A stretch of DNA of 64,000 nucleotides, taken from Cymbidium sinense (lineage: Eukaryota; Streptophyta; Magnoliopsida; Asparagales; Orchidaceae). Position 1 is the stretch's first letter; every line of letters begins with the position of its first letter. The position numbers and the translations under genes were made by a program. The DNA lies in the NCBI GenBank assembly GCA_021442155.1, contig CM038216.1, positions 87,206,945-87,270,944 of the forward strand, read 5' to 3'. Of this stretch, positions 16,145 to 57,838 are shown one piece after another. Under the pieces are notes generated by a model, which saw only the letters and a program-made list of their open reading frames with translations, searched no databases and was not told where the DNA came from.

Positions 16145-19100
16145 TGAAACAAATTCAACCCTCTCCATGAGTGGAGATTTCTCCTTAGTGAGACTCAATT
16201 CAAATAAAACCTCTCATCCCCATATGGATGACTTGAACCTGCTTCCCTAGTGAAAGGTTCACACTCTATCCCTTAGTAGATTTCTTCCCACTCTCTCTTA
16301 TGTCTTGGACATAAGTAGAGCTACATTTCACTAAGCTCTAGATTTTTTTTGTACACCTTGGGTTAAGGATAGATTGTTTTTGTTAGTGCTTGTGATCTTT
16401 TGGCGTTGTTGATCATTTTGGTCAACACCAATACGTGTGGTGTTCTTTGTTAGTCACACCACACCTATTTGGTGCCCTTTGTTGACCTCATTTCTAGAAT
16501 GAATGCTCAACACTTCCATCTTAGACATAGGACTTCTCTTAGACTTTAAGAGTTTCTTAGCCTTAAGACACATTTGGTGATTAGGAATAGGTTATGCCTT
16601 AGGGGTGTTAGAAAAGTTTTCCTAGCCTTAGCTTGAACCATTCCTCACCTTCCTTCCTTGAAGTCAAACTCGAAATCAATCTTATTTGATTTTCTCCAAA
16701 CTCAAATCAACTTCATGATTGAAATCCATGACTAAAATCCATGATTGAAATCCAAGATTGAAATCCATGATTAAAACCCATACATGAAATCCCTCCAAAT
16801 CATTCTTAAATACTTAGCCAAAATCATGATCAACACCAAATCAAATACTTGAGATCTTCTAACTCATTTATATTCTGATTTATATTCACATATATAAATG
16901 AAATATAAATACAAATCAAACAAATCAAATCCTCAAATGAAATTGCAAATCTAAAATTTTCCCAAGTCCTTTAAGTCTTCCTTCATGGACTTAGCCAAAT
17001 TTATGATCAATCCAAATCAAACTCATGAGATTTTCTCATAATTCATTTATATTCTCATTTATATTCAAATTTATAAATGAAATATAAATATATATCAATC
17101 AAACCAAATTCAAAAATTCAAGCTTCAAACTCAAAATATTTTCTAAGTCCTTTAAAATTTCCTTTTAATGGACTTAGCCTAAATCATGATCAAGTCACTT
17201 CAAATCCTTAAAATTTTCTCATGTTCAATTTATATTCTCATTTATATTCACATATATAAGTGAAATATAAATTCAAAAAATCAAAACCAAATCCAAAAAT
17301 TAAATTCAAATCCACTCAAAATCTAACCTAAGCCTTTCAAGTCAAAATCTTGAACTTAGCCAAATCAAATTCAAATCAAGCCAAACTCTTGATTTTCCTT
17401 CATGATTCAATCAACCCTACAATTATGAATCCAAAAATAAATACAAACTTCAATGACTTAATCAAAATCCAATTCAAAAATCATCCATTCATATTCTTCC
17501 TTTGAATATGAAATTGTCAAATGAATCAAAACCCATTTCACTTCAAACCACTTGCAAATGGATTTATATTTCAATCATAAGTCCTTTTATAAGTTCAATC
17601 AAACTCAAATCAAGCTTTGACCAAGCCATTTGACCCACTTAGGCTCACATGACCCAAAGTGACCTAAAGTACCCTTATGAGCTAAATTCTAATCCAAACC
17701 AAATTGGATTAGATCAAACTCACCTATGCCTCTCATCATGGGATGATCAATTAACCAAATTGGGTCAAACCAAGTCAAACATAAGGGTTGACCAAGTCAA
17801 ACATAAGGGTTGACCAAGTCAACACTTAGCCAAAATGAAACCTAACATAGATAAAATCCACCATAGGCTGATGGTTGAAATGATCAAATTTCATTCATGA
17901 CCTATGTTTAAACTTGATCAAGTCAACATTTGAGCCTAACCTAGCCCAATGAGCCACTTGACCCAAGTTGACCCAACTTGACCTAGAAAGTCAAAATGTG
18001 TCAAAACTTGATCTAAGCAAAATTGATTGAAACCAATGGGCCATGTTCATTCCAAATCACTTGTGGAACTTGACCAAAGCCTCAATTGACCAACTAGACC
18101 TAACCTAGCGCAATTGACCTTAAACCCAACTTGACATAAATGGGTCATGTTGAGCCAAATTCGAACATAACCAAAATTGATTGAAAACAAAGATACCAAT
18201 CCACTCCATATGACTAACCAAACCTAAGCCTACCCCTGACCTAGCTCAAATAGCTCAAATGGGTCATTGATCAACTTGACCCATTTGATCTAAATGAAGT
18301 CATATGAGTCAAATTCAAAACTAAACCAAATTGAAACAAACCAAAAGCCACCAAAACATATGAAATGGTCATATGAACTTGATCCAACTCTTGGTTTGAC
18401 CCAATTTGACCAATTGGTCAACTTGACCTAAGTTGACCCATTTTGACCTAAATGGGTCAACTTGAGCCAAACCTTATCAAATGAACTCCAAATCTCATGA
18501 AACTTGGCCAAACCTAGTTTCTCCACATACCCAACATATCCAAATTGAAAAATTAGCAAAATGACCATTTTACCCTTAGTCCATAGAACAAATTTTGGTC
18601 TAAACCATGGGTAATTTGGTTAAGCCCTCTTTATATCAACTAGATACCTTCCTAATAGCTCAAGTGGACTCAATGAAGAGTGGTGCACCCAACCCAATGT
18701 GTTTGGGTCAGCCCAAATGGACCCAAAGCCAAACCCACCCCTAGCTCAAATTGGCTCATTCAAAATACTCCCTCCACTTGATTTGAAGCACATGGGAGGT
18801 TACCAATCCACTCAAGACCTCAAATCGATCATGTGAAAAGATCTAATAGCCTAAACAACCCCTCCCATATGGTCAATTAGATCAAAATGACAACTCATGG
18901 TTTGGCCATCTGATTGCCATAGGGGGAGATATACTCCCCCTAATTCAATTTGAATTGATGATCCTCACATTTGATTGAGCACTAGAGAGAGTTAGGATCC
19001 ATTAGAGAGCATTACTAAGCTTTCTAAGAGGGATTTGGATCTTAGTTTTCTCAATTTTCTTCCTTAGAAAATAAGGGAGCTCATATCAATCCTCAACTTC

Positions 19101-22100
19101 CTCCTCACTCAAAACTACTCCAATTCCCTTTGCACACTCCCTCAGGGGAACAAGTTGAGTGCACCTAAGCATTCCCTCAAGTTCCCAGAGCAAGGAGAGG
19201 TTTAATTAGATCAAAGCTGTAAAGAGAAGCAAGTGGTGTGTGTCCATAGAGAGATCTACTCAACCCCAATGCTTGAAACTTTCAACAAAGCTTCATCTCC
19301 ACTAGAAAAAGATACCTCATCGAGCTCGAGCGTCGGTGATCACCTCCATTGAGGTATGGAATTTTTTGACCACTTAGCTTAGGAGGTGTTGGTCCTTTGT
19401 GAACGAAATTGTTATGACATGTGAAATCCACCATTGGATAGGCTTGTCTTTAGTGCTAGATGGTGAGGGTACAATCTCATTCCAATCGGAGCTCAATCCT
19501 GAACAGTCTCCATTAATCCTCAGGGAAGAACTAGGAGAGTCTTGGTCATCCATTCGCACATTTTGGATGGACGGCCTAGATTAATCGGACATTTTAGAAA
19601 TGATTTATCCCTTTAGAAACTACGGGATGATCCCTGGCCGTCATATCCTTAATTGAATGACAGGGATCGAACCGCATCCTGTCGCCACGCCGCCTTCTTA
19701 ACACAACATTTAAGTGATTATCTCATGGTGTGACGCATGTAAAGCGCTCTGACCACTACCGCTGTGTGTCACCCTGTAAGCTAAAGGGATTAGTTAGGGA
19801 TTTAATTAATTTTAATTAATCTCCTAACCTTCAAAAATTCATATCTCCCTTAATAAAATTCACAAAAATATGAGGTAAATTTATATGGAAAAATAATTCG
19901 ACCTAGAATAAATTTAAAATAATTTCAATGGATTTTGAGTTATAATTTCCTCTAATTTTGGGTTTTCATGGAAATCTTATTTTTCTAATTACTTCTTAAT
20001 TAATCATCTGATTAATCCTAAACTTCTTGGGTATGTTTTAGGGGATGACCTCTGCATCCCCTAATTTTCTAGTGATTTATTTAAGGATTAATTTTGGGAA
20101 TTGCAAATTTGTTTCCTAATTACTCTCTTAATGTAATTAAGGATAATTAAGATTTTGATTAGTGTTTTAATCCCTCATTAGAGTTGATTAAGGTTAAATC
20201 CAATGAATAGGAGGCTTGAGAAATAATTTTGGGGTATTTCCCCTAAGATATTTCATAAACCCCATTTTCTTTCCTTAATCCTCTCTTAATTAAGCGTTAA
20301 TTCATTAATTATTCTCTTAATTAATTTTTAAAAAATTTAAAAACTTCCAAAACTTAATTAATCTACTTTGGGTTGATGCTTAGGTGTTGAATATCCTAAG
20401 TTCAATTTAGGAAATCAAAACCCAACTTGCATGTGTGAGGGGTGTTTAAAACTTACTTAAGTTAAACCCCCTAGCCTAATTAATTATTAATCATGAGCCA
20501 AATTGCATTAAACCCATTTCTTCCTAGGTGCACCACAAGTTTAAATTCCTTGTGAGTTTTTTTGTCATCTCATTGGCTCATAATTACTTGATTAACTATG
20601 CTAAGGTAGTGTAGATAAGAGTTAATTAATTTGTTTTAATTCATACCCTAACCTAATCAAAATCTAAAATGAATCTAATCATTTAAAAATTAAACAAAAA
20701 TATAAAACACATGTGGGAATGGGTTAGGAATAGTAAACTCAACTCACATTTTCAAAATTAAATCAAACAAAAATCTTCTTAAATACACTTTGATTTACTA
20801 TAAGCTTTCTTATTTCATAAGAATGTCTTTAGAATTTAATTAAAGTGAATGTGTTTACATACTTTCATAGCTTTAGTTCTTTCCCCAACATGTTAAATGT
20901 GCATGTCATATGGTTTCATGCGTCCATATTTTTCAAAATCAAATTCAAAAAGGAATTGTCTACTTTATGTCAAATTTGTATGAGTTGGTAAAGTAGAAAT
21001 ATGAGTGACTATTATCACTATTAAATTCAAATTATTTTCAAAAATATATGAATTAATCATCAATTCTAAAAGTGTGTTACTTATATTTTAATTATAAGCT
21101 TTCATGTGAGTAAGATATAAAGATGTGTTTAGTGTAGGTCTTCCTTCTCTTTTCTTTTAATATAATTTTGAATAGGATTTGTTCAGATGTATGGTTCATT
21201 TGAAAAGAACCTAACACTTACCTAATCCCATATCCTATTCATTCCTATACTAATACTTAACAAGGGTTACCAATGCTTGCACACATAAATTGCATAAACA
21301 AAAATGAATCAACTAATACAACTTTTGCATTTCTTCTTTTCCATTTCATTTCTTTTGTATTTAAGGAAAGTGGAATATTAGTCTAGAAAATCTTGAGGTT
21401 TGAGGCTTTAAGTACCCCTAAGTAGGTCTTGTACCTTACACCTCTAGTTAACAATGGCGCTGTACTCACTTATGCCTTTCTTACTTTCAGGTGTGCATGT
21501 GAAAATTGAATAAGAAATCCCTTTCTACTTAATGAAAATCATGCATCTTAAACTCCCAAATTTCCTTAAATGAATTACTTAGCATGCATCATAAAGTGTG
21601 TTAAACATTCTCATTTTGTATGTATAGATATGCTTAGGACTCATTCATAAGCATGTTATACATGTTGGGAAATAAATGAAGTGATGTGTGTTTTGTAAAT
21701 TTGGTTCATTTTATTTAATCTTAAAATGCCTTTTTTTAAATGGGTTTGTTTAGAGTTCATCTAAACTTAGAATTAATTAAAACACTTAATCAAAATATTC
21801 ACTAAACAAAACTAAAATATGAATCTACTTTAGAAATTAGTTAGGTTAGGGAAGGAAAGAGAAGTTCACTTCTCTTTCCCTCTCTTTATAACTTACTAAT
21901 TAATTGTAAGATTCACTTGAACCAAATAAAAACATGAAATAAAATCAACCCAAAATAACTAAACAACTTAAATGAAACCCTCCTCTAAGTTGAACATGCT
22001 TCACACTTATAAAATTTTAACTTAAATCCATAGCTAAGCATACTACACAAACCTTTAAAGCACACACATTAGCCTAAGTCATGACTTCTAGCTTTAGGTT

Positions 22101-24236
22101 AGGGTGGTGCATGGTTTGATGCTTGTTTAGTTTTGTGATATATGTTTTAGACTGGATGTTAAGATGTATGCTTGTAGAATGAATAGTAGGGTGATATTAG
22201 TCTAACCATTATTTTCTGCAGGGGATTGTGCTTAAAGGGCACTATAATAAAAAATATAAATGTTTTTGCTTGCAGGTGCTTATACCCCTAAGCATAATCC
22301 AATAGGCCAGGTGAACTTAGTCACCCTTGTGTGGGGTGATATGTCCATTATACATGCTTGGGATTTGGTGGTTTGTTTAGCTAACCTTTGTTTTGTAGGT
22401 GTTAGCTAGATTTACTTTTCCTTTTTATGTAAATTTGGGAAATTAGGATTTTGGAATGATTGTTATGGGGATTTGGATGAGCATTGATCATAAGATCCTA
22501 TCTTATGCCCCATGTGAAGCCCTTGGAGCATCCACCTTCTAACCATCCAAAAGAAGGAACCAAAGAAGAAAGAAGAAAAGAAGAAGAAAGATGAAAAGAA
22601 GAATGAAGAAATGAAGCTTGAAGACCCCCATAACAATCAATTCCTTGCTTAATTGTAATTTAATTCATTTATAATCTAGGTTCTATAAGAGTAGAGATCG
22701 GCTACCCAATTTGTTATTTTCGGGTTTGTGTGGTAGTGCCCGACACAACGACCTCTTATTCTTTTTTACGATTAGCTTTATAAATTGATTGATGATTTGT
22801 TTAGCATTTGCATTAAGTTGCATCTTTTCCTAGTTTCTTCCTTTCTTTATGTATGGCCTGGATGTGGATTAGGCTCTTAGATAAAAATAATTCATTTACC
22901 AAATCTAACAACTCAAAACTAAAAATAAAGAATTCATAACATCACCTAAAGCTTAGGTTTAAAATCAAAACAAAAGAATTAGCAACTCGTTAGCTAGATG
23001 AGTATTTATTTTACAATATCATGCACAAATACATCTATTTGTACTCTTGATTGGAGGGCTTCCACCTTTTCCAGAGAAACTTGGCTTGACTTTTGAGAGC
23101 CATGGTGGAAACACACCTCCTCCCTTCTTGCTGATTTTTGCCAATAACTTTATTTCTCATGAATTAGGCATATGAATCCTTTAAGCCTGAGTCAAAATAA
23201 TTGTCCAAAAATAAAAATAAAAATAAAATATGAATTGCATTAGAATTAGATTATTTGAAGCATATCCTTACATGATCTAGTCTCTTTAGAGAGTGAGTTT
23301 AATGACTTAGTCTCTTTCTAAATAAATAATAGTCTAGCTATCTTGCATAAGCATATGACTTGCCTACATGTATTTAAAATCATAGGAGGAGTTAGTTGGC
23401 AGCCACCCCCTTGCAGTTGTAAGTCCAAGCAATCATGTGGTTTATCTTCTCTTATGGAGGCAAACCAAATGCCCATCTTCATCTTAGATTTAGGTTGTGC
23501 TATCGGCACTCGCCAAAGCTCCCTAGATTTAGGTTCTAAGGTTGCTTCTCCCCTTTGTGGGCCATAAGCATAATTCCTCACCTCTTAGGCATTTCCTTAA
23601 TCTTGTGTTAAGGAATAATAATTCCTAAATTTCTAATGAAAAATGCAAATGAAACAAATTAAATCAATTTTAAAAATGTAAATCCCAAGCATAGGATAGC
23701 TTGAGATGCTCGCTAGGTTTCCCAGCATTGTGGGCATCTCCTACTTATCTTTCTTTTGGCTTCGATAATAACTCACTCTCTTTGATCAATCCCATTTGAT
23801 CTTCAAAATAAACTAATTGATTGATAGTCTTTTTCTATTTAAATTTATTGAAATCTTTGAAGAAAATGATCATTTACCTTAATCGAGAGTTTTCCGAAGG
23901 GATCTCATCCCTTAGGATGTAATTAATTATGGGGGCTTGCCTCTAGAACTTAATTAATTTAAAATAAACCCGCTTTACTTTTCCATGTAAAGTAGGGAAG
24001 AATCTCTGGTACATATGTAGACTCATCATCTTTAGAGTCCTTATTGAGGTGATTAGGTCCATTAAAGGGTAGTGACTTCTGTCTTTCAAGATATTACACT
24101 ATTCCTTGATGACGTACCCGATCACCTAAATAAGCAGATCTGCGGATTAGCATGGTATCCTAAAAAGCTGAATTTTTATATTTTTGCATCTTTTATCACA
24201 GATTTAAAGGCGACCATATAGAAATTTTTCTACCCA
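16145..24236 (+). mobile_element. 5' LTR of the outer plus-strand Tat-like element (about 8 kb)
   Basis: This is the inverted counterpart of the LTRs at 32350-39491 and 53143-60391. The proposed termini are TGAAACAAATTC at 16145 and GAAATTTTTCTACCC ending at about 24236. Landmarks in order are: 170-200 bp AT-rich tandem repeats (about 16780-17330); a long TTGACC-rich patch (17600-18740); a GC-rich block (19620-19770); TTAATTA-rich sequence (19790-20350); a purine tract (22550-22615); and the terminal domain (22700-24236). It is about 900 bp longer than the other two LTRs, largely because the TTGACC patch is longer. The boundaries are inferred by comparing copies. The open frames at 19374-19584 and 23318-23581 lie within it and are not credible genes. 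Confidence 0.75.
17600..18740 (+). promoter_or_regulatory. TTGACC/T (W-box-like) cluster in the LTR
   Basis: About twenty TTGACC or TTGACT cores, mostly on the LTR sense strand, are packed into roughly 1 kb, often as 'TTGACCCAAGTTGACC' type doublets. The cluster recurs at 1880-2720, about 38090-38350 and about 59010-59290 in the sense orientation of each LTR. TTGAC[C/T] is the core bound by WRKY transcription factors. The motifs are arranged as a degenerate tandem repeat, so their number may reflect repeat expansion rather than selection for binding. Confidence 0.4.
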
Positions 24237-25060: not shown

Positions 25061-25099
25061 TCATTTATCCTCTCCTAGAAAGAATAGATGAAGGCCAGA

Positions 25100-26230
25100 A
25101 TATTTCACCATAATACCAAAATTTGTTAAATGGAAATATCTCTTTTCAAAGTCAATCAAAAATAATAAAATTCAAAATATATTTGGAACTTCATTCTAGC
25201 ACATCCCATTTGCTAAAATGAAGTCTCCCTTTTCTAAAAAAAAAAAATTTGAAACACCTTTGGAATTTCATTTAGCATACTCAAATTTGCTAAGTGAAAT
25301 TTCCATTTCACAAAATGTTTTCAAAATATTTGAACTTCATTTTAGCATACCATATTTGCTAAAGTGAAGTCTCCACTTTCAATCAAAAAATAAATCAAAA
25401 CCAAAAAGAAACACATTAAGATTCCCTTAGCTTACTTAAATTTGCTAAGGATCCTATTTTTCAAAAACAAATCAAACAAAAAAAAAGAAAAAACAATAAG
25501 ATTCCCTTAGCATTCTTAAACTTGCTAAGGATCCTACATTTTAAAAACAAATTAAAACCAAAAGAAACACATTAGGATTTCTTTAGCATACTCAAATTTG
25601 CTAAGGATCCTACTTTTCAAATATCAAAATTTTCAAAAAGAAACACAATAGGATTTTCTTAGCATACCCAAATTTGCTAAGGATCCTATTTTTCAAATTG
25701 AAAATATCCAAAACAAATGAAACACTTTAGGATTTTCTTAGCATACTCAAATTTTCTACGAATCCTATTTTCAAAAATATTCCAAATAAACAAAACACAC
25801 TTGGGTTCTTCATTTAGCATACCAAAACTTGCTAAGTGGGAATTCCAATTTTCAAAATCATCAAAGATTCACAAAGCAAACATAAGAAAAAAACAATTAT
25901 TTTTGAAAACCTCACTTAGCATGCCCAAATTTACTAAGTGAGTGAATTCCAAAATATCAAATCAAAAACAAAACCAATTGAACCTTTGCTTTAACATACT
26001 CAAATTTGTTAAAGGAAAGGGTCCTCAAATCAAAATCTAATTTCAAACATGAACCTATGGAAGCATCTTTCTAAAAATATTTGAACCCATTTTCAACATA
26101 TCCAAATTTGTTGAAATTGGATTCATATCTAAAAATTTCTCTTTCCAATCAAATCTAAAATTCTTCTCTAAATACATTTGAACCCAACTTAACACTTCCA
26201 AGATGTTGGATGTGGGTTCAAATTTTAAAT
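25100..26230 (+). repeat. Hairpin array in the leader between LTR and gag (about 14 units)
   Basis: Every 70-95 bp there is a short inverted repeat. Clear examples are 25188-25224, 25266-25299, 25334-25370, 25425-25450, 25505-25530, 25581-25606, 25649-25688, 25911-25942 and about 26170-26218. The inner stem is TTAGCA/TGCTAA (or TTAACA/TGTTAA) around a conserved 9-11 base loop, TACYCAAATT. The outer stem varies by unit: ACTTCA/TGAAGT, TAGGAT/ATCCTA, CTCACTTAG/CTAAGTGAG, TTTGAACCCA/TGGGTTCAAA. The best stems reach 13-14 bp with few mismatches, and one unit (25728-25767) has decayed on its right arm. The same array, inverted, is in the other element. The frame at 25717-25941 is an artefact of the repeats. 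Confidence 0.85.
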
Positions 26231-28189: not shown

Positions 28190-29330
28190 ATGGTTGAGCA
28201 GCAGGTGAAGGAAGCATTGGCTCAAGCCCGGGGAGGATCATTAGTTCCAAAGGGTACACCCTACCCGGAGGAATTTGATGCATTCCAATATCCCAAGGGT
28301 TTCATGCCACCTTCTTTCAAGAGTTTTGATGGCGGGAAACTGAGGCACATCGCCCATTTCAGAGCTAGTTGTTGCAACGCCGGTGGCAGTGACACTTTGC
28401 TTTTTTGAATCTTTGTTAGTAGCCTAACAGGGATAGCTTTTGACTAGTATACAGAACTTCTCAATGGTTCAATGAAGACATTTGCTGAGTTGGAGCAATT
28501 CTTTATCAAGAGGTTTACTGGAGCTCAGCAAAGGGTTACTGTGGGCTATCTCATTGTAGCACAACAACACTTATGTGAGTCCCTTGTTGACTACATTCTC
28601 AGATGGAGTAACCTGAGTATGAAATGCGAGCCGCAGCTATCTAAACAACATTCCATTGAGATTCTTCTAAAGAATATCCATAGCCCGATCACCTTTATGC
28701 TTAAGGGCTTCACTATCAAAACTTTTGAGAAGCTAATAAACAAGGTGGGTAGTCTATAAGGAGAGGCCAAACAGTTGCATTTTCAAGATCAGTTGCCTAA
28801 TAAAAAGTCACAGAAGGTGTATGAGAAGAAGTCGAGAACAATGACAGCAGTAGATAAGGGGAAGCAACCAGCAAGAGATCAGTCCGAGAGACCATGACCT
28901 TAGTAGCCTTTGCTTCAACCTCTTCTACCATCACTGAGGTATCCCTACCGTCCACCACAATAGCCTTCATGGCCTACACCACCGCCTCCTCAACCATATC
29001 ATCAGCAGTAGCGACACACATAGTTACCGTCAAGTAGCTATGGTCCACCTACTCTTTTAGATAAGCTTAATAAGCCTTATTCATATAAGAGGGAGGTAGT
29101 CAGGAAGATCGTTAATAACCCCTTAAAGAAGCCTGATTTTCAGCTACCCAAACCTAGGAGACCAGAGGAAGTAGGAAAAAGCCATGATCATAACTTTTGT
29201 CCCTACCACTGTATGCTAGGCCATATTTTGTAAGATTGCTTCACCTTCAAGGACTAGCTTGAACATAGCTTCAAGACCGGTGCTATAGTTATCCCAAAGG
29301 AATACCTTGTGAAATAATCATCTAGTTCCA
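28190..29330 (+). pseudogene. gag (nucleocapsid/capsid) of the outer Tat-like element, broken
   Basis: The frames at 28190-28408 and 28472-28759 read through the retrotransposon gag domain: FDAFQYPKGFMPPSFKSFDG, ASCCNAGGSDTLLF, then FAELEQFFIKRFTGAQQRV, VDYILRWSNLSMKCEPQL and FMLKGFTIKTFEKLINKVGSL. A Lys/Gln-rich tail follows (KKSQKVYEKKS), then a modified zinc knuckle near 29200 (CPYH, MLGHIL.DC). Gag forms the particle in which reverse transcription occurs. In-frame stops at 28406 (TGA, where the other copy has an Arg codon) and at about 28444 (TAG for Trp) are single C-to-T or G-to-A transitions. Confidence 0.85.
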
Positions 29331-31790: not shown

Positions 31791-32349
31791 ATTCAATAAT
31801 ACATAAGCTTAAAGAAATCAACCTCGGGACAGAAGAAAGTCCACGCCCGACTTACATCAGTTCATTGCTGAATGAAGAAGAAACCAATGACTTAGTTAGG
31901 TTATTGATTGAGCTTAAAGATTGCTTCGCAAGAAGTTATGTATAGATGCCTGGATTATCTCCTGACGTAGCAGTCCACAAGATAGCAATAGATCCTAACC
32001 CTATCCCTATCAAGCAAGCTCCTAGACGCATGCGATTAGAAATCGAACAATAGGTCATTTATGAAGTCAAGAAACTGATCGATCTTGGTTTAATTAGGAA
32101 AAAAAATTACCCTACCTGGTTAGTCAATGTCATACCAGTTAAGAAGAAGAATGACCAAATTTGCATTTGCGTTGATTTCAGGGGCTTAAACAAGGCGTGT
32201 CCTAAGGATGAGTTCCTCTTCCTATACCAAAGTTAATGGTGGACATTGCCTCATCTCATGTAATATTTTCTTTCATGGATGGGTCATCTAGTTACAACCA
32301 AATCAAGATGTCTCCTGATGATGAAAGAAACACTGCTTTTTGAACCCTA
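31790..32349 (+). pseudogene. Reverse transcriptase N-terminal half of the outer element, cut by the nested insertion
   Basis: The RT finger and palm start is recognisable: ISSLLNEEETNDLVRLL, MPGLSPDVAVHKIAIDP, PIKQAPRRMR, VKKLIDLGLIRK, then PTWLVNVIPVKKKN, ICVDFRGLNKACPKDEF. A frameshift follows at about 32217, then FMDGSSGYNQIKMSPDDERNTAF. Sequence stops at the equivalent of TAFRTL (32349). The catalytic YVDD-type box lies in the missing part. Stops at about 31945 (Trp to TAG), 32052 (Gln to TAG) and 32341 (Arg to TGA) are C-to-T type. The frame resumes at 60392 only at the start of RNase H, so roughly 560 bp of RT is absent, judged against 44140-44700 of the other copy. Confidence 0.85.
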
Positions 32350-35300
32350 TGGAAAAAATTTTCTATAGGGAGTTGCCTTCAAATCAGTGGGGAGAAAGGA
32401 AAGGCAAGGCACTATAAAAATTCATCTTGATAATATTCCATGTAGATCTACAAATGTACATATTCTGGTGATCGGGTACATCATCAAGGAAAAGTGTACT
32501 ATCTTGAAAGACAGAAGTCACTACCCTTTAATGGAACCAATCACCTCAATAAGGACTTCTAAGGATGATGGTTCTGCATATGTACAAGAGATTCTTCTCC
32601 TACTTTACATGAAAATGTAAAGCAAAGTTTATTTTAAATCAGGTTCATTAAGTTCCCTAAAGAGGCAAGCCCCCATAGTTAATTACATCCTAAGGGACGG
32701 GATCCCTTAGAAAAACTCTCGATTAAGGTAAATGATCATTGTCTTTGAAGATTTCAATAGGAAAGGACTATCAATTGATTAGTTTATGTTTTTGAAGATC
32801 AAATAGTATTGATCAAAAGAGGGTGTTATTATCGAAGCCAAAATGGAAGATAAGTAGGAGATGCCCATGATGCTAGGAAACCTAGTGAGCATCTCAGCCT
32901 ATCCTATAGTTGGGCTTTACATTTTTGAAATTGATTTAGTTTGTTGAATTTTTTTCATTAGAATTTTAGACTTAAGATTCCTTAACACAAGATTAAAGAA
33001 ATGCCTGTGAGGTGAGGAATTATGCTTATGGCCCATAAAGGGGAGAAGCAACCTGTAACCTAAATCTAGGAGTTTTTGGAGGGCTGACAACCTAAATCTA
33101 AGGAAAAAAATGGGTAATTGTTTTACCTCCACAAGAGATGAGAAACCACCTGACAGCTTGGACTTACAACTGCCTGGGGGTGGTCGCCAACTTACTCCTC
33201 CTACAATTTAAAATACATGTAGGCAAGCCTTTATGCATATGCAAGATAGCTAGGTTATTTTTATTTAGAAAGAGACTAAGTCCTTAAACTCACTCCCTAA
33301 AGAGACTAGATCATGTAAAGGGACATGCTCTAAATGACCTAAATCTAATGCAATTCAAATTTCATTTTATTTTCATTTTGGGACAATCATTTTTGACTCA
33401 GGCCAATAAGATTTTTATGACCAATGCATGAGAAAGAAGGTTATTGACCAAAATCAATGAGAAGGGAGGAGGTGAGTTTCCACCACAGCCCTCAAAGGTC
33501 AATCCAAGTTCTCTGGCAAAGGTGGAAGCCCTCCAATCAGGAGTGAAATAAGATGCATTTGTGCATGATATTATAAATAAATACTAATCTAGCTAAGGGG
33601 TTGCTAATACTTTTATCTTGATTTTAAACCTAGGCTTTAAGTGAGGTTATGAGTTATTTAACTTTAATTTGAATTATTAAGTTGGGTAAAAGATTTATTT
33701 TTCCCTAAAGAGATTAATCCACATCCAGGCCATACATAAAGCAAGGCAAAACTAGGAAAATCATGTCACTTAATGCAAAAGCTAAACAAATCATCAATCA
33801 ATTTATAAAGCTAATCGCAAAAAGAATAAATGGTCGTTTATGGTTGGGCACCACCGCACAAACCCAAAAATATCAAATTGGGTATCCAAGCTCTACCCAT
33901 ATACAACCCATATTACAAATGAATTAAATTACAATTTAAGCAAAGGAATTCATTGTATGGGGGTCTTCAAGCTTTATTTCTTCTTTCTTCTTTCTTCTTT
34001 TCTTATTTTGGCTCATTCCTTTAGATGGTTGGATGGTAGATGCTCCAAGGCTTCACATGGTGCATAGGATGGGATCTTATGACCAATGTTCATCCTAATA
34101 CCCATAACAATCATTCCAAAATTGTAATTATACAAATTTTTACATGTAAAGGAAAAGTGAAAATCTAACTAACACCTGCAAAATAAAGGTTAGCTAAATC
34201 ACACCACACAAATCCCAAGCATGTATATTGGACTTATCACCCACACATGGGTGACTAAGTCCACCAAGCCTATGGATTATTCTTAGGGGTATAAAGCACC
34301 TGCAAGCAAAAGCATTTATATTTTTATTTATGATAGCACCGCTTAAGCACAATCCCCTGCATTAAAGAATAGTTAGATAAAGTATGTCTTACCAATCATT
34401 CTATGAGCATACACCCTAACATCCAGTCTAAAACATATATAATAAATGAAAACAAATATCAAACCATGCATCGACCTAACCTAAGGCTAGAAGTGGTGAC
34501 TTAGGCTAATGTTTGAAGGTTTGTGTGGTATGCTATTATATTTATGTTTAAATTTTCTAAGTATGAAGAAAATGTTAAACTTATAGGAGGGTTTCATTTA
34601 AGTTGTTTAAGTTTTTTGGGTTGGTTTTATTTCATGTTTTAATTTGGTTTAAGTTAAACCTATAAATAATTACTATGTTATGAAGAGATGGAATGAGCAA
34701 AGAACTTCTCTTTCTTTCCCTAACCTTAAGTAATTTTCTAAAGTAGGTTCATATTTTAGTTTCATTTAGGTGAATGTTTTGATTAAACCTTTTAATTAAT
34801 CCTAAGTTTAGATAAACTCTAATCAAACCTATCCAAAAAGAAAGACATTTTAAGATTAAATAAAATGAATCACATAACACGCATTATTTCATTTCTTTCC
34901 CCAACATATATAACATGCATATGGATAGACCCTAAGCATATGTATACATAAAAATGAGTATATTTAACACACTTTATGATGCATGCTAAGTAATCCATTT
35001 AGGAAAATTTAGAAGTTGAATATGCATGATTTTTTTTTCTTAAGTAGAAAAGGTTTTCCTCATCTAAATTTTCACATACATACATGAAAGTAAGAAAGGC
35101 ATAAGTGAGTACAACGCCATTGTTAACTAGAGGTGTAAGCTATAAGACCTACTTAGGGCTACTTAAAGCCTCGCAATCTCGGGGTTGTCCAGACTAATAT
35201 ATCACTTTCCTTAAGTACAAACATGTATATAAAGAAATGAAATAGAAAAGGAATATGCAAAAGTTGTTTAGTGGATTCATTTTATTTTTATGCAATTTAT

Positions 35301-38300
35301 GTATGTAAGTGTAGGTAACCCTTCTTAGATGGTAGGGATGAAAAGGATATGAAATTAGGTGAGCATTAGGTCTTTTTCAAATGAACCTTATATCTCACCA
35401 AATTCCTATTCAAAACTATACCAATATAGGAAAGAATGGAAACCTATACTAAGCATACCTTTATAATATTTCACATGCAAGATTAGAATTAAAGTATAAG
35501 TAGCACACTTTCATATTTGGCATTTGATTTATGTATTTTTGAAAATAATTTGGATTTAGTAGTGATAATAACCACTCACATTTGACATAAAATAAACAAT
35601 TTCATTTTAAAATTTAAAATATGAAAATTATGAATGCATGAAATCACATGGCACACAACTTAGCATGTTGGAAAAAAATCCAAATCAATGAAAGCATGTA
35701 AACAAACTCACTTCACTTAAATCCTAAAGACATTCTTATAGAATAAGAAAATTTAGAATAAATCAAAGTGAATTTCAAAGTTATTTTGTTTAGTTTGAAG
35801 TTTGATTTAATTTTAAAAAGGTGAGATGAGTTTGCTATTCTAACCCATTCCACATGTGTTTTGTATTTTTGTTTAATTTTTAGACAATAATTAGATCCAT
35901 TTTTTATGTGTTGATTAGGTTAAGGTATGAATTAAGTAGCTTAATTAACCCTTACCTACACCACCTTAGAAGAATTAACTAAGTAATTATGAGCCAATGA
36001 GATGATATAAAACCCATAAGGAATTTAAATTTGCAATGCACCTAATAATGAAAAGGCCTAATGCAATTTGGCTCACAATTAAAAGTTAATTAAGCAAAGG
36101 GGTTTAGTACTTTCAAAACACCTTTCACACATGTGAATTGGGTTTAATTTCTTAATTAAACTTAGGCTATTAAACCTAAGCATCTACCCAAGGTAGATTA
36201 ATTAAGTTCTGGAACAGAATTTTTTTTTTTAGAAAGTTGATTAAGGGATAATTAATGAATTAACCCTTAAGAGGATTAAAGGAGAAAAGAGGGGTTTAGG
36301 GAATAGCTTAGGGAAATGCCCCAAAATTATTCCATGAACCTCCTACTTAGATCTACCTTAATCAACCCTAATCGAGGGGTAAAACCACTAATCATACCCT
36401 AATTATGCTTAATTACATGAGAAGGGTAATTAAAGAAATCATTTGCAATTACTCTAATCCATCCTTCCATAAATCTCAAAAAAATTAAGGTTGGGAGAAG
36501 TTATCCCATAAAACTTACCCAAGAAATTTGGGGTTAATCAGAGGTATAATTAAAGAGTAATTAGCAAAATAAAATTTATAATAAAATAAAAATTCAAAGA
36601 AAATCATAATTCGAAACTCATCAAAATTAATTTTAAAATGTTCTAGGTTTAATTATCTATCCATAGGTTTTAATTTCATAATTTTTTGATTTTTCTATGA
36701 AGATTTATGCATTTTTGAAGTTCCATGGATTAATTAGGAATTAATTAATATACTTAACTAATCCCTAGTTAATACCTAGATCACGATGTGGCATGTCGCA
36801 ACGATGATCAGCACACTTTACACACGTCACACCATGAGGGGACAACTTAAGTTATCACCTCATAAAGGCGGTGGCGGCACACGCGCTTATATTCTCGACC
36901 CTCTGATCAAAGATTAGACGGCTTAGGTTTTCCCCACGATTTATAAAGTAGATAAATAGATTTCTAAACATGTTAAATATTCTCAATCATCCATCTAAAA
37001 TGAACGGATGGACGGCTGAAATGAGCCAAGTTTTCTCTTTGATCAATAGAGACCGTCCATGATCAAGGGGAAGATCCAAGCTCAATCTAGCATGAAATCA
37101 CACAAAATTTAACCCACACCATTTAGAGAAATAGAGCGGCAAATCCAATGGTCAAAATTTGATGAGGTGAAAATTTCTTTTACAAAGCTCCACACCACAT
37201 TGAGTTTAGTGATTAGAAAATTCCATACCTCGCCGGAGATGATCACCGGTGCTCGAGATTGCTGAGGTAGCTTCGTCATGTGGAGATGAAGCCCTATTGA
37301 AATTCCTAGGCCTTGGGATTTTGTGGATCAATGGATAGACCAACTCCTCCTTGCTTGGGCTTCGGCTTTGATTGAATTTGATCCTTCCTATGGAACCCAA
37401 TAGCTTAGCAAGCTTGGCTTAGCTCCTAGATGAAGTGTACAAGAGCAATTGGGAAGAAATCAAGTGTGGAAGAAATTCACTAATGGATTAAGCTCCCCTA
37501 TTTTTGTATTGTGCAAAACCAAGAAATAGGGAATTCAAATCCTCTCTGAGAAACTTGGGAGTGCCCTTGATGATTGCGGGTTCCTAAGCTTCAATAAAGG
37601 GTAAGTTAAAATTTCATGAATTATGGGGAGTATATCTCCCCCTATGGCAATTGGATGATCGAACCATGAGTTTCCATTTTGATCGACCATATGGGAGGGG
37701 TTGCTTAGGCTATTAGATCTTTGTGCTTGGTCGATTTGAGGCATTGAGTGGATTGCCAACCTCCCAAGTGCATCAAATTAGGTTTAGGAGGGACTTTGAA
37801 AATTCAATTTTAGGCTAGGTGGTCGAGTTAGGTCTAGGGACCAAATGGGCTGACCCAAACCCATTGGGTTGGCTGTATCACTCATCACTAAGTCCCTTTG
37901 AACTTTTAGGAAAGCCTCAAGTGATTGTGAAGTGGGTATGACCAAAATACCCATGGGCTAGGCAAAAAATTGTTCTATGGCCTAGGGGTACTATGGTCAT
38001 TTTACTATTTTCCACTTTGGATACATTAGGTATGTGGAGAAACTAGGTTTGGCGAAGTTTCATTTTATTTGGAATCCATTTGATAGGGTTTGGCTAATGT
38101 TAACCCATTTAGGTCAAAACGGGTTAACTTGGGTCAAGTTGACTAATTGGTCAAATTGGGTCAAACCAAGGGTTGGGTCAAGTGAGCCAATTGGGCTAGG
38201 TTAGGCTCAAATGTTGGCTTGGTCAAGTTGAAACATAGGTCATGAGTGAACTTAGGTCAATAGTTTCGATCAATTTGGCCAATGGTGGAATTTGGCTATG

Positions 38301-39491
38301 TAAGGTTTCATTTTATGTTAAGTGTTGACTTGGTCAACCCTTAGGTTTGACTTAGTTTGGTTGATTGATCATCCCATAAATTTGAATAGGTTTGATCAAG
38401 GTTTAGGTTAAATCCATTAATGGAAAATTATTGGATTTAAGAGAATTTTAAATTAGAATTTAATTTTTGCCTTTGATTGGATTGATTTATATTTATATTT
38501 CATTTAAACATAAAAATATAAATGAGAATATAAATAAGTTTTGAGAAAATCCCATGAATTTGAATAGGTTTGATCAAGTTTTAGGATTGATTTTGGTTAA
38601 GTCCTTGAATGGAAAATTAAAGGGATTAAGAAAATTTTCATGAATTGATTTGGAATTTTGAATTTAATTGGATTGATTTGAATTTATATTTCATTTATAT
38701 ATGTGAATATAAATGAGAATATAAATGGATTATGAGATTATCTCAAATATTTGAATAGGTTTGAATCATGACTTTGGCTAAGTCCTTAAGGGAGGCTTAA
38801 GTACATAGGAAAAATTTGGGACTTAGGAATTTTTGGTGGATTTTGATCATGGGTTTCAATCATGTATTTCAATCATATGGAGTTGATTTGATTTTGAAGA
38901 GAATCAAGTAGGATTGATTTGGAGTTTTACTTGAAGGAAGGAAGGTGAGGAATGGTTTAAGCTAAAGAGTAGGAATTTTTCCTAACACCCCTAAGGCATA
39001 ATCTATTCCTATGGCTAACTCTTCTAAGTCTCTAGGGCTAGGTTTGAGTATCCACCTAATCACTAGATGTGTCTTAAGACTAAGGAACTCTTAAAGTTTA
39101 AGAGAAGTCCTATGTCTAAGATGGAGGACTTGAGAGCTCATTCTAAAAATGAGGTCAACAAAGGGCGCCCAATAGGTGTGGTGTGATTGACAAGGAACAC
39201 CACATGTATTGGTGTTGACCGAAACGATCAACAACACCAAAAAATTACAAGCACTAATAGAAACAATCTATCCTTAACCCAAGGAATAGAAAGAATCTTG
39301 AGCTTTGTGCAATGTGGATCTACTTATGTCTAAGACATAAGAGAGAGGGAAAAATTCACTAAGGGGTAGAGTATGAACCTTCCACTAGGGAAGTAGGTTC
39401 AAGTCATCCACAAGGGGATGAGGGGGTTTGATTTGATTTGAATCTCACTAGGGAGAGATCTCCATTGGGGGAGAGGGTTGAATTTGTTTCA
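32350..39491 (-). mobile_element. 3' LTR of the nested element
   Basis: Reading on the minus strand, it starts at TGAAACAAATTC (39491) and ends CTATAGAAAATTTTTTCC(A) at 32350. Internal landmarks: AT-rich tandem repeats about 38390-38800; TTGACC-rich patch about 38090-38350 (short version); GC-rich block 36780-36900 with a near-perfect palindrome at 36834-36862; purine tract (CTT-rich on the plus strand) 33971-34010. It has the same content as 53143-60391. Frames at 32387-32620, 33840-34067, 37206-37400 and 37535-37759 lie within it without support as genes. Confidence 0.8.
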
Positions 39492-41900: not shown

Positions 41901-43280
41901 TCATGGGTAATATGTCTTTAGATAGAGCCCATTGATTGGAAGCATCGGGTGTTCCCCTTTACAATCAATAAGCTGATAAGATACTCTTTGGTAGGCCTTC
42001 TCTATGACATAAGGGCCTTCCCAAATGGGTTCAAACTTGCATCCCATCTTTCGATGGGCAACAATTGGTCTCCTTAAGACTAACATAAGTTCTCCTACTC
42101 AGAAAGACCTTGGGTAGACCATCTTGTTATGATTTTGAATCATTTTGGCCTTGCACAACTCAAGATTTTGGCACGTCCGTAGGTGACTATACTCCAAACC
42201 TTTGAACTCTTCTAACCACAACTTTGCATTCTACTCTATTGTAACCTTGCTACCCAATGCTATCCTTAGTGATAGGAGTTGAACTTCTAAAGGAAGAACG
42301 GCTTCAGACCCATACACTAAGGAAAACTGGGTTGACTGAGTTGGAGTTTGGTATGTGGTGTGGTAGGCCTACAAGGCTTCAACCAACTGGTCGTTCCATT
42401 ATCATTTGTTATCATCAAGAGTCTTCTTTGGTATCTGGATGAGAGTTTTGTTAAATGCTTCTGCCAAGCCAATAGCTCTAGGGGAATAGATGGTGGAGTA
42501 TCTCCAATCTATACCGTGTCTTATGGCAAAGCTATTGATCTTCATACTTTTGAATGTAGTACCATTATCGGATATAATTCATCGAGGCACCCCGAACCTA
42601 TGTACGATATGGTTCCTAAAAAATTGAAGCACGTGGTGAGCTATGACCTCTCCCAGTGGGATGGCTTCCACTCACTTGGAAAAGTAGTCGGTGGCAGCTA
42701 AGATGAATCGATGCCCCTTGGAAGAAGGAGGATCCATCGAACCTACAATACAAGTACCCCAACACTCAAATGGCCATGAAGCCAATGTAGGGTGTAGAAT
42801 GTTTGGTGGTTGGTGGAGGACCACACCGTGCACACATTGATGGCATCTCTACTACGCCATGCAATCGTGATCATCAAGGCCAGTAATATCCAAGTCTTTT
42901 GATCTTCATCTTCATCTTTGGACTAGATTGATGTGCTCCACATAGACCTGAGTGAACCTTGGTTATAATGCCACAAGCTTCATATTTGTCTAAATAACAT
43001 AACCACATTTGGTCAAAGGATCGGTAGTACAGGGTGCCATCAACATGAGTGTGGGAGAGAGCTCTCTGTTTCACCTGATGGGCTTGTGATTTCTCTTGAG
43101 GTAGTTTATCGATGTTCAAGTAATCTATGAACAGTTTCCTTCAATCCAACTCCTTGTCCATTTTGGCAACGACAACCTCCCCTTCATAAGAAAGTCTCTC
43201 GATGAGTTCCGAATCAATAAGAGATAAGACTTATCTATTTTGGACCCTTATTGAAATGGACTCATTTTTCAGACATGCTA
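41901..43280 (-). pseudogene. Integrase of the nested element, broken
   Basis: The zinc-binding region lies at 42874-43119 (GTLYYRSFDQMWLCYLDK, HSGLCGAHQSSPKM). The core follows: FECWGTCIVGS near 42760, where the plus-strand copy has GTDIVGP, so the first catalytic Asp is lost; then ILAATDYFSK near 42690. The third acidic residue, in LAEAFNKTLIQ near 42450, is kept. The C-terminal part is 41901-42086 (LVLRRPIVAHRKMGCKFEP, WEGPYVIEKAYQ, ending in LKTYYP), typical of Tat-type elements. Integrase joins the DNA copy to the host chromosome. Several stops (for example at about 42690, 42405 and 42110) break it. The plus-strand frames at 42257-42701 are antisense shadows. Confidence 0.85.
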
Positions 43281-43740
43281 ACTCTTTGGCAAGTTTGGCA
43301 AAGGCATCTGCTACTGTGTTCTCTACTCGGGGAACCTTGTAGATGGTGACTTCGGGAATCTAGGCCAACAGCTTCATGGTATACTCATAGTAATGATGAA
43401 TCTTGGGTTTGAGAACCTGGTAGGACCTGACAATCTGGTTGATGGCCAACAAAGAATCCCCAAAGATATTGATGTTCTTGACACTGATAGTGATGGCTAA
43501 CTTTAGACTAGAAATCAAAGCCACATACTCAGCTTCATTGTTGGTATAGAGGTTGGAAAGATAGTATGAGAATCTCATCACATCACGATTTTGAGTTAGA
43601 AGAACTATTCCTACCCCTACCTTTCTTGGGAGAATACATCATCGTGCTTCACATTTAAGAAAATAAGCAGCACCATAAAAATACATCTCCCATCGGTGGT
43701 TGCCAGCCTCCCCTAAGTTCATGATTTGTTCATGAGGGAG
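43280..43740 (-). pseudogene. Second (archaeal-type) RNase H, aRNH, of the nested element
   Basis: The frame at 43360-43581 reads MRFSYYLSNLYTNNEAEY, LISSLKLAITISVKNINIFGDS and INQIVRSYQVLKPK. This matches the aRNH domain found between RNase H and integrase in Tat-lineage elements. The start (MYFYGAA, at about 43680) has Tyr where the plus-strand copy has Asp (MYFDGAT). The Glu of NNEAEY, the Asp of FGDS and the Asp of VADAFAKLA (near 43300) are retained. The domain is split by a stop and a frameshift near 43600. RNase H degrades the RNA strand of the replication hybrid; the special role of the second domain is not settled. Confidence 0.8.
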
Positions 43741-44160
43741 ATCATCACTAAGTGGAGAATTAGCAGGAAGTGGGTGTGCTGCTAAGAAATCCGCTAGTGC
43801 TTGACTTTTTAATGCATGGAGGGGAACAAATATGATATCAAACTGTGAGAGTATCATGGACCAATGAACCAAATGTCTGGAAAGCATTGGCCTATCATCA
43901 GGTACTAAAGTGGATTGGTTTGGGAGATCAAGTTCACCTTATGAGAAAGCATGTAGTGTCGTAGCTTCTGAGATGCAAAGATCAAAGCTAGGCAATATTT
44001 CTCAATGGATGGATAGTTTGCTTGAGGATCGAGATGACAGGTAGTAGAGTGTACTTTCCTTCTCTTCTTTATTGGCTTGGGATAATAGAATGCCATGAGA
44101 GTTGTCCAATGAAGCAGTGTAAGGGATCAAGGGCTTGCCCGAGATAGGGGTTGCTAGAAC
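43740..44160 (-). pseudogene. RNase H (first) of the nested element
   Basis: Frames at 43905-44096 and 43639-43887 give the pieces: PISGKPLIPYTASLDNS near 44140, then YPSIEKYCLALIFASQKLRHYMLSHKVNL, and HLVHWSMILSQFDIIFVPLHALKSQALADFLAAHPLP. This is the connection and RNase H region that follows RT in Ty3/gypsy Pol. It matches the plus-strand fragment at 60392-60850. It is divided by at least two frame breaks (near 44096 and 43900). Confidence 0.8.
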
Positions 44161-45180
44161 TGGTGGCTTCACCAACTATTCTTTGATGTCTTCGAATGCA
44201 TGCTGGCACTTATCATCCCACTTAAACTTGGCATCCTTTTTGACAAGTGCTGAGAATGGCCTACATCTCCCTAATAGGTTTGAGATAAAGCATCTTAGAT
44301 ATGCCATCCATCCTTGAAAGGATCTGAGTTGAGTTAAACTCTTAGAAGGTGGCATTTCTATGATAGCTTTAATCTTTTAAGGATCTATTTCTATTCCCTG
44401 ATGTCAAACAACAAACTCAAGGAATTTTGTTGAAGAAACTCTAAATGCACACTTCAGAGGATTCATCTTGAGGTAATATTATCTTAATCGTTCAAAAACT
44501 ACACTCAAGTCAAAGAGATGGTCTTCCATTTCTAAACTCTTAACTACTAGATCATCAACATGGCACTCAACCTAATGATGTATGAGTTCGTTGAAGATCT
44601 GAGTCATGGCCCATTGGTATGTAGCACCAGTATTTTTAAGGTCAAAAGGCATGATCCTATAACAGAAGATTCTGATCAGGGTTTGAAAAGTAGTGTTTCT
44701 TTCATCTTTAGAAGACATCTTGATTTGGTTATAGCCAGATGACCCATACATGAAAGAGAAGATAGCATGAGATGAGGTGATGTCCACCATTAATTTTTAT
44801 ATAAGAAGAGGAAACTCATCCTTAGGACATGCCTTGTTTAAGTCCCTAAAATTAACACAAAAGTGAATTTGGCCATTCTTCTTCTTAACTGGGATGACAG
44901 TAGCTAACCAGGTAGGATATTTTTCTTCCCTGATAAAACCAGATTGATCAATTTCTTGACTTCAGAAATGACCTGTTGTTCAATTTTTAATCACATGCAT
45001 CTAGGAGCTTGCTTAATAGGGGTAACATTAGGGTCTATTGCTAGCTTGTGGACTGCTACATCAAGAGATAATCCAAATATTTCTTCATAACTCCATGCGA
45101 AGTAATCTTTAAACTCAGTCAATAGCCTAACTAAGTCATTGGTTTCTTCTACATTCAGCAACTAACTGATATATGTTGGG
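44160..45180 (-). pseudogene. Reverse transcriptase of the nested element, broken
   Basis: The frame at 44572-44790 contains MVDITSSHAIFSFMYGSSGYNQIKMSSKDERN and CYRIMPFDLKNTGATYQWAM. The catalytic box follows at about 44540 as HVDDLVVKS, in which Tyr of the usual YVDD is His; both Asp residues are present. The thumb and connection continue (LKMNPLKCAF, then RSFQGWMAYLRCFISNL) to about 44160. The N-terminal fingers lie at 44800-45180. Stops, for example near 44460 and 44390, break the frame. The Asp of the upstream FMDG motif is Tyr here (FMYG), which alone would inactivate RT. Confidence 0.85.
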
Positions 45181-56100: not shown

Positions 56101-57727
56101 GGAATATGCAAAAGTTGTTTAGTGGATTCATTTTGTTTATGCAATTTATGTAAGTGTAGGTAACCCTTCTTAGATGGTAGAATAGGGATGAATAGGATAT
56201 GAAATTAGGTGAGCATTAGGTCCTTTTCAAATGAACCTTATATCTCACCAAATTCCTATTCAAAACTAAACCAACATAGGAGAAAAATGAAACCTATTCT
56301 AAGCATACCTTTATAATATTTCACATGCAAGCTTATAATTAAAGTATAAGTAGCACACTTTCAGATTTGGTAGTTTATTTATGTATTTTAAAAAATAATT
56401 TGGATTTAGTAGTGATAATAGCCACTCATATTTTACTTTAGCCAACACATGCACATTTGACATAAAGTAAACAATTTCATTTTAATATTTGAAATATGAA
56501 ATTATGAATGCATGAAATCACATGGCACACAACTTAGCATGTTGGGAAAGATCCAAAGCAATGAAAGCATGTAAACAAACTCACTTCACTTAAATCCTAA
56601 AGACATTCTTATAGAATAAGGAAATTTAGAATAAATCAAAGTGAATTTCAAAGTAGTTTTTATTTAGTTTGAAGTTTGATTTAATTTTAAAAAGGTGAGA
56701 TGAGTGTTCTATTCCTAACTCATTCCCATATGTATTTTGCATTTTGTTTAATTTTTAGACAATTAGATCCATTTTTATGTGTTGATTAGGTTAAGGTATG
56801 AATTAAGTAGCTTAATTAACCCTTACCTACACCACCTTAGAAGAATTAACTAAGTAATTATGAGCCAATGAGATGACATAAAACCCACTAGGAATTTAAA
56901 TTTACAATTCACCTAATAATGAAAAGTCCTAATGCAATTTGGCTCACAATTACAAGTTAATTAAGCAAAGGGGTTTAGCTTACGTACTTTCAAAACACCC
57001 TTTCACACATGTGAATTGAGTTTTAATTTCCTTAATTAAACTTAGTCTATTAAACACCTAACCATCTATCCAAGGTAGATTAATTAAGATATGGAACTTT
57101 TAAGACTTTTTTTAGAAATTTGATTAAGGGGATAATTAATGAATTAACTCTTAATTAAAAGGAGATTAAGGAGAGAAGAGGGTGTTTATGGAATAGCTTA
57201 GGGGAAATGCCCCAAAATTATTCCATGAACTTCTTACTTACTTGATCTGACCTTAATCAACCCTAACCAGAGGGTAAAACCACTAGTCATACCCTAATTA
57301 TGCTTAATTACATGAGAAGGGTAATTAACGAAACCATATACAACTGCTCTAATCCAGCATTTAATAAATCCCAAGAAAATTAGGTGAGGTAGAAGCCATC
57401 CGCTAAAACATACCCAAGAAATTTGGGATTAATCAAAGGTCTAATTAAAGAGTAATTTGCAAAATACAATTTCTAATAAAACCCAAATTCAGAGAAAATA
57501 ATAATTCAAAACTCATCAAGATTAATTTTAAAATGTTCTGAGTTTAACTATCTAACCATAGGTTTTATTTCAAATTTTTTTGATTTTTTATGAAGAGTTA
57601 TGCTTTCTTGAAGTTCCATGGATTAATTAGGAATTAATTAATACACTTAACTAATCCCTGGTTAATCCCTAGCTCATGACGTGACGCGTGGCAGCGGCGG
57701 TTAGCACACTTTAAACGCATCACATCA

Positions 57728-57755
57728 TGAGGGGACAACTTAAGTTGTCACCTCA
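57728..57755. repeat. Near-perfect palindrome in the LTR GC-rich block
   Basis: TGAGGGGACAAC followed by TTAAGTTGTCACCTCA forms a 28 bp palindrome with one mismatched pair. It also occurs at 36834-36862, and in decayed form at about 625-650 and 19698-19725. Surrounding sequence is the only GC-rich part of the LTR. Confidence 0.7.
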
Positions 57756-57832
57756 CAAAGGTGGCAGCGGTGCACGCGCTTATATTCTTGACCGTCTGAT
57801 CAAAGATCAGATGGCTAAGGATTCCCCCGCAG

Positions 57833-57838
57833 TTTATA
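57833..57838 (-). promoter_or_regulatory. Candidate TATA element in the nested 5' LTR
   Basis: TATAAA lies on the minus strand within GCTTTATAAACTGCGGGG, about 80 bp downstream of the conserved GC-rich palindrome block. The other LTR of this element has it too (36940-36945). It is degraded in the 16145-24236 LTR. Its position after the TTGACC-rich patch is reasonable for a U3 promoter, but no transcript start can be shown from sequence. Confidence 0.25.

Follow-up and report, generated by a model that had tools for sequence, protein, structure and literature searches.

The 64-kb stretch of Cymbidium sinense DNA analysed here, referred to as the window, carries two homologous arrays of short hairpins. 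Both are located between LTR homology and the gag/coding part of giant Tat-type (Ogre/Retand-like) Ty3/gypsy elements, so that the position between LTR and gag given in the original prediction holds in both elements. These are probably hairpin arrays of sense RNA that were under past selection for fold and loop. As a tentative best explanation, the array may be a regular part of the 5' leader in a very abundant family of such elements and may act there as a multivalent packaging signal.

Nested elements and their arrays

Element B occupies ~28 kb (32347-60391), has LTRs of more than 7 kb, and is nested in antisense orientation within the related element A. The two elements comprise the following features:

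18377..24229, plus strand: 5' LTR (part) of element A, with 78% identity to the LTR of B
25097..26226, plus strand: array of 14 hairpins in element A, spaced 75-100 nt for the most part, with A-rich linkers
28448..28756, plus strand: remnant of gag in element A, matching Retrotrans_gag weakly (E 0.047, not reaching the Pfam cut-off)
32347..39489, minus strand: 3' LTR of element B, start possibly further out
42405..44796, minus strand: pol of element B, four Pfam matches
42405-42578, minus strand: rve of element B, below the Pfam cut-off
43363-43638, minus strand: RVT_3 (aRH) of element B, above the Pfam cut-off
43908-44126, minus strand: RT_RNaseH of element B, above the Pfam cut-off
44575-44796, minus strand: RVT_1 of element B, below the Pfam cut-off
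50815..52600, minus strand: hairpin array in element B, homologous to that of A, with 13 cores at ≤3 mismatches and ~18 hairpins by eye
53140..60391, minus strand: 5' LTR of element B, sharing 87.9% identity with the 3' LTR

The coding homology of element A stops at ~32,348 and restarts at ~60,398, with ~0.5 kb of B between these points being unmatched. The flanks of element B (AACCC/GTCCC) agree in three of five bases as a possible target-site duplication; where its LTR starts is uncertain, as the similarity between A and B extends past this point. In element A, the 3' end of the LTR is present once more (81%) at 24239-25030, between the LTR end and the array. This duplicate is also matched by the compared copies of the A subfamily, L002-L008 and L070.

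The pol domains of element B follow the order RVT_1, RT_RNaseH, RVT_3, and rve on the minus strand. A further RNase H domain (aRH), located between RH and integrase as in element B, is the hallmark of the Tat lineage, and the order RH-aRH-INT is given for angiosperm Ogre and Retand elements (PMC6317226, excerpt). A second RVT_3 match is present in element A (60844-61200). Element B thus resembles the Tat lineage (Ogre, Retand) in its RT-RH-aRH-INT order, very large size, and non-coding tandem arrays. With its ~28 kb and LTRs of more than 7 kb, it is larger than the plant LTR retrotransposons covered in the same excerpt, which reach roughly 24 kb with LTRs of up to about 5 kb (PMC6317226). A plant mobile domain, reported there from an extra ORF of 57% of Ogre elements (PMC6317226), gave no Pfam match in the two broken frames before gag. 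Neither the PBS nor the transcription start was located for the hairpin-bearing elements.

Several features distinguish the elements from Retand, whose LTRs average 635 bp (range 315-1,194 bp) and in which about half of the elements carry tandem arrays between pol and the 3' LTR (PMC11963269, excerpt). Unlike these, the array in the window stands before gag and consists of hairpin units, and the B LTRs measure ~7.1-7.25 kb. Short LTRs and an array between pol and the 3' LTR, which are typical of Retand without strictly defining it, were not found in element B: Tandem Repeats Finder detected no tandem array between 38,876 and 46,133.

Local folding of the element A array revealed 13 recognisable hairpins and one decayed hairpin at 25,097-26,226, in agreement with the about 14 that had been predicted at 25100..26230. 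All are on the plus strand:

25097..25144, plus strand: hairpin 1, decayed (dG -6.5)
25185..25227, plus strand: hairpin 2, ACTTCA/TGAAGT type
25262..25304, plus strand: hairpin 3
25332..25374, plus strand: hairpin 4
25417..25457, plus strand: hairpin 5, TAGGAT class, outer stem broken in the window copy
25497..25537, plus strand: hairpin 6, TAGGAT class, outer stem broken in the window copy
25573..25612, plus strand: hairpin 7, TAGGAT class
25648..25688, plus strand: hairpin 8, TAGGAT class
25728..25768, plus strand: hairpin 9, TAGGAT class, inner stem partly decayed
25801..25849, plus strand: hairpin 10
25907..25942, plus strand: hairpin 11, CTCACTTAG/CTAAGTGAG
25980..26024, plus strand: hairpin 12, TTAACA/TGTTAA core
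26077..26127, plus strand: hairpin 13, TCAACA/TGTTGA core
26174..26226, plus strand: hairpin 14, TTTGAACCCA/TGGGTTCAAA, loop differs

The four outer stems named in the original prediction (ACTTCA/TGAAGT, TAGGAT/ATCCTA, CTCACTTAG/CTAAGTGAG, and TTTGAACCCA/TGGGTTCAAA) were all present. The inner stem and the loop, both described there as fixed, are nearly so. The inner stem reads TCAACA/TGTTGA at 26,093 and is partly decayed at 25,728; the loop differs at 25,188 and at 26,174-26,226, and some loops are of 9 nt. Complementarity of the outer stems was seen in most units, the exceptions in the window copy being those at 25,417 and 25,497, where the inner stem folds but the outer stem does not. Nine of 40 aligned rows, including that of the window, have the pair-breaking base at 25,419.

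Every unit in the window is oriented toward gag. No further cores (≤3 mismatches) were detected on either strand of the 64-kb window outside the two arrays, and the search against Rfam 15 gave no match above the gathering score within the window.

Abundance of the array in the genome

The 22-nt core pattern has 61,259 exact matches (30,159 + 31,100) in the 3.53-Gb genome, while the reversed pattern has none in the whole of it; the occurrence of the core is therefore beyond chance. A search with the A array yielded 7,402 first-look candidates, and the 40 that were scored, the window itself included, are 82-100% identical. A set of 30 loci was compiled from the window (2), the A-array search (1), and the core pattern (27). 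At ≤5 mismatches, a threshold at which some matches are due to chance, 29 of these loci, some of the 30 being incomplete, contain 8-25 core matches each; the remaining one, L084, contains two. When each locus was turned by its majority strand, 333 cores (≤2 mismatches) pointed one way and none the other.

An array-blind sample was obtained by using as a query the sequence that directly follows the B array (41 matches, from the best 40 of 6,020 candidates), and the 951 bases upstream were examined in 20 of the 39 other copies. These copies are not a random sample, since they were drawn from the best-scoring 40 of 6,020 candidates. At least five cores (≤4 mismatches) were found in 18 of the 20, which bears out the expected presence of the array in other copies of the family. 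The two remaining copies have two cores and none, respectively, the latter containing 100 N (an assembly gap). Core spacing is similar among the array-blind copies, and no core was identified on the opposite strand in any of the 20 (≤4 mismatches).

One explanation of these arrays is that a single ancestral unit with a palindrome was duplicated in the leader, as happened in other Tat elements, and that its descendants owe their complementarity mostly to inheritance, are losing it by decay, and now serve no function. Tandem arrays are indeed common in Retand, though between pol and the 3' LTR (PMC11963269, excerpt). The occurrence of the array, with similar spacing, in 18 of 20 array-blind copies speaks against this explanation, which we regard as rather unlikely.

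In locus L028 (248-3022), a diverged array adjoins sequence that lies downstream of the gag-like region in A and B. Judged from this arrangement, L028 is possibly a gag-less derivative, in which the part between the array and the post-gag sequence would be missing.

Folding, loop conservation and pairing of the arms

Folding of the leader in silico, which had been suggested as a check, gave strong signals for the sense strand of both arrays (z = -14.1 for A and -11.9 for B, each against 40 dinucleotide shuffles). Antisense folding is weaker (-7.0 and -5.3, respectively), and the adjoining 1 kb downstream of the array folds in an ordinary way (z = -0.7). Individual units fold nearly equally on both strands (mean -12.59 vs -12.13); among 619 units, 346 fold better in the sense and 263 in the antisense direction.

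Hairpins picked from the 30 loci by stem pairing alone numbered 463, compared to 118 in mononucleotide shuffles of the same loci. A loop of 10 nt is by far the commonest (180 of 463), and the sequence TACYCAAATT is kept at 76-97% per position, the variable Y aside. Since these hairpins were selected by stem pairing only, the core filter does not account for the conservation of the loop. The 62 ten-nt loops from the 20 array-blind copies show 87-98% agreement at eight positions and have two variable pyrimidine positions.

The stem of the main-class consensus is ~20 bp long. This length and the huge copy number would suit hairpins that are cut by Dicer-like enzymes or that shield the RNA from silencing. 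The other folding class consensuses, however, have only 13-18 bp with bulges or internal loops, and selection for a fixed loop sequence would stay unexplained, which makes a small-RNA substrate or decoy very improbable.

Spacers of the A array consist of 52.4% A and 3.9% G. The A-rich, G-poor linkers and the location upstream of the coding region are compatible with translation control, in which hairpins and linkers would organise ribosome loading, shunting, or internal entry before the first ORF. Upstream ATGs (8 in A and 13 in B) would hinder plain scanning; their numbers are below the dinucleotide null (12.0 ± 2.8 and 18.8 ± 3.2, respectively). Pararetroviral shunt leaders are similar to the array region in being structured leaders before the first large ORF, but they are described as combining several short ORFs with a stable stem-loop and not with many small hairpins (PMC2241666). 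A conserved 10-nt loop also has no obvious role in a pure shunt, and we consider translation control improbable.

The 619 unique units were clustered into 12 classes, each with at least five units in at least three elements. Among the class consensuses, the 5' outer arm differs on average at 6.1 and the 3' outer arm at 6.3 of 10 positions, and the loop at only 1.2 of 10. Nevertheless, the summed outer-stem energy of the own arms is -160.2, compared to -94.4 ± 12.0 after permutation, a value reached in 0 of 20,000 permutations; this is not a pure probability, because the 12 classes are related and were treated as independent. In six of 12 classes, no other 3' arm pairs better than the own one, which ranks 2, 2, 2, 3, 5, and 6 in the others. 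For 339 unique units of the 30 loci, own pairing amounts to -12.44, swapped pairing to -8.89 (sd of permutation means 0.17), and shuffled arms to -3.48; the corresponding values for 105 array-blind units are -12.04 (own) and -7.23 (swapped). Swapping among units with the same or nearly the same 5' arms makes little or no difference. The arms thus changed together between unit classes. Passive descent of tandem repeats does not easily account for arms that differ at ~6 of 10 positions between classes and still pair better with one another than with those of other classes, with a loop that is near-constant.

Within classes, inheritance accounts for much of the pattern. Of the 61,259 cores, 54,494 have a concordant R-Y pair in the inner stem (G-C, 35,815; A-T, 18,679 by subtraction; G·U, 4,017; A·C, 2,748; odds ratio 60.6). 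This genome-wide table was dropped as independent evidence of covariation after a linkage control with the loop base. In the main class, the two bases of the inner pair are associated with each other (phi 0.82) about as strongly as one of them is with a loop base that does not pair (0.80), and the inner-stem switch is therefore mostly block inheritance, as expected from mere duplication of one founder unit. For all population units, the two values are 0.81 and 0.46. The claim that both arms change together is thus valid between classes and, within the main class, largely reflects common descent. A null based on a unit tree (100 simulations, 18 pairs), which was built from the same columns, left excess association for inner4 (z 7.0), inner2 (3.7), outer7 (3.1), and outer2 (2.6); outer8 (2.8) showed no gain in pairing, and the remaining pairs had little or no excess.

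Orthologous 3' hairpins were compared on a tree drawn from unpaired columns. An unconditioned tree null gave a large pairing excess and was rejected, as the structure had been drawn from majority bases. The conditioned null holds the majority base and frequency of each column (300 simulations). With 24 elements (six of 30 excluded), there is no excess of paired cells (Watson-Crick, 1723 vs 1716 ± 11), a result in line with passive inheritance of the repeats; A·C cells number 80 vs 90.1 ± 9.7, and compensated cells are borderline (23 vs 15.2 ± 4.0, 14 of 300 simulations as high). The larger test comprised 40 elements, eight of 48 having been dropped by alignment score and two further array-blind copies excluded beforehand. 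Here, Watson-Crick cells amount to 2892 vs 2859.9 ± 14.3 (5 of 300 as high) and compensated cells to 26 vs 15.9 ± 4.2 (7 of 300 as high); transversion mismatches number 162 vs 181.2 ± 15.2 (37 of 300 as low). A·C is depleted (91 vs 112.8 ± 11.1, 5 of 300 as low), but G·U is not (236 vs 227.1 ± 12.8, 77 of 300 as high), which is the pattern that selection on sense RNA would give. The excess of paired and compensated cells with 40 elements is modest, being small and one among several measures examined. Paired changes beyond descent, as originally proposed, are therefore absent or borderline with 24 elements and modestly in excess with 40. A small covariation effect is expected if most of the variation is decay after insertion.

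Another strand test, which compared G·U with A·C in the raw classes, was rejected as biased by bulge register and mixed by position. The raw class-stem counts (A·C, 413; G·U, 214) are against a sense-RNA reading, but bulge register inflates A·C. By position, outer1 and outer6 of the main class favour T·G, and outer3 and outer5 favour C·A.

The matching of arms might also be maintained without selection, if hairpin-driven template switching during reverse transcription copied one arm onto the other. The joint change of arms between classes and the few intermediates of the inner pair, with 54,494 of 61,259 cores concordant, agree with such upkeep. It is, however, at odds with the common mismatches that persist, T·G at outer1 in 96 and C·A at outer3 in 35 of the 141 main-class units, as well as with the asymmetric bulges retained in class consensuses. 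Depletion of A·C without that of G·U is likewise not expected of blind repair, and mutational upkeep appears quite improbable.

Among close copies (40 aligned rows), the evidence is weak, with no clear extra stem constraint, as would also be seen in repeats without present function. The ratios of shared to private variants in the A subfamily are 0.20 for stems, 0.28 for spacers, 0.29 for loops, and 0.24 for other unpaired positions, and the pair is kept in 14.7 of 37 shared stem variants vs 46 of 189 private ones. One pair of the A subfamily, 25263/25303 in hairpin 3, is clearly compensated (G-C, 22; A-T, 15; G-T, 2; G-A, 1); 26088/26119 is partly compensated (C-G, 30; T-G, 4; T-A, 3). Between A and the 29 other loci, a comparison that relies on loose local alignment, the contrast in identity is mild: 0.869 for the inner stem, 0.839 for the outer stem, 0.819 for the loop, and 0.809 for the spacer. 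Deletions are rarer in stems and loops (0.03-0.05) than in spacers (0.116).

Possible function and known counterparts

In the loop it is the sequence that is conserved, and in the stems chiefly the pairing, a pattern that hairpins displaying their loop to a protein would be expected to show. The single orientation, the G-poor linkers, and the regular presence before gag also fit an RNA of this kind. The leader RNA would be made and folded as a string of roughly 8-25 hairpins of 13-20 bp, each with the 10-nt loop UACYCAAAUU, joined by unstructured, A-rich, and G-poor linkers, and its pairing would be maintained by selection on the RNA. The likeliest partner of the loop would be the element's own Gag, which may bind many sites at once and thereby select, condense, or pair genomic RNA. 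A degenerate frame of element B (47,565-47,876, minus strand) encodes a CPYHCMLGHVLEDC stretch, which we take to resemble a zinc knuckle as present in Gags of this type; the Pfam search gave no zinc-knuckle match at this place.

The original prediction listed packaging, translation, and small-RNA pathways as roles that the array may have. A packaging role of the hairpins is a possibility that we hold with reservation; packaging, dimerisation, and particle nucleation would look alike at the level of sequence. It is more doubtful whether the array is a modular, expandable packaging or dimerisation signal, in which 8-25 hairpins would present the conserved 10-nt loop to Gag and stems would drift while pairing. 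Units would then be gained and lost by tandem duplication, and the valency of Gag binding may change quickly between subfamilies.

Several hairpins with a common loop motif and differing stems, as observed here, are one of two features expected of a multivalent loop-motif packaging signal; the other would be binding by the coat protein (Gag) of the element itself, on which packaging would depend. The dispersed, degenerate packaging signals of small RNA viruses such as satellite tobacco necrosis virus are similar in that several short stem-loops near the 5' end share a loop motif, AxxA; this motif comes from in vitro selection, and the in vivo data of the same source weigh against it (PMC6475782, excerpt). 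Unlike these, the orchid loop is longer and stricter, occurs in a spaced tandem array, and is a candidate for protein binding.

Retroviral 5' packaging and dimerisation stem-loops, which are recognised by Gag, are also located between LTR and gag, but they are few and dissimilar, while the array has many homologous hairpins. Among the papers listed by full-text searches of a library mostly without subscription papers, there was no LTR-retrotransposon leader with a hairpin array, in accordance with what had been stated beforehand. Packaging hairpins as such are already known; a tandem array of homologous hairpins of variable length in a retrotransposon leader is new as far as we have seen.

To our knowledge, the way in which plant LTR retrotransposons select RNA for their particles is poorly understood. 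The thousands of candidate copies, which vary in stem, loop, and unit number, would offer a ready-made mutagenesis library for the reading of the leader by Gag or ribosomes. Tandem repeats of Tat elements are often regarded as satellite seeds, and the array would show that they can be structured RNA.

Other repeats were noted in the window. Tandem duplications of ~180-190 bp occur within LTR copies at 2965-3475, 16812-17312, 38402-38764, and 59284-59680. A stretch of ~4.7 kb (7494-12189) is composed of degenerate telomere-like AAACCCT/AAACCT repeats, interspersed with AAAAT-rich repeats, and inverted LTR-like copies (76%) lie on both sides of it (6-3930 and 16479-20342). Similar sequence is also present in locus L084, near an isolated hairpin core.
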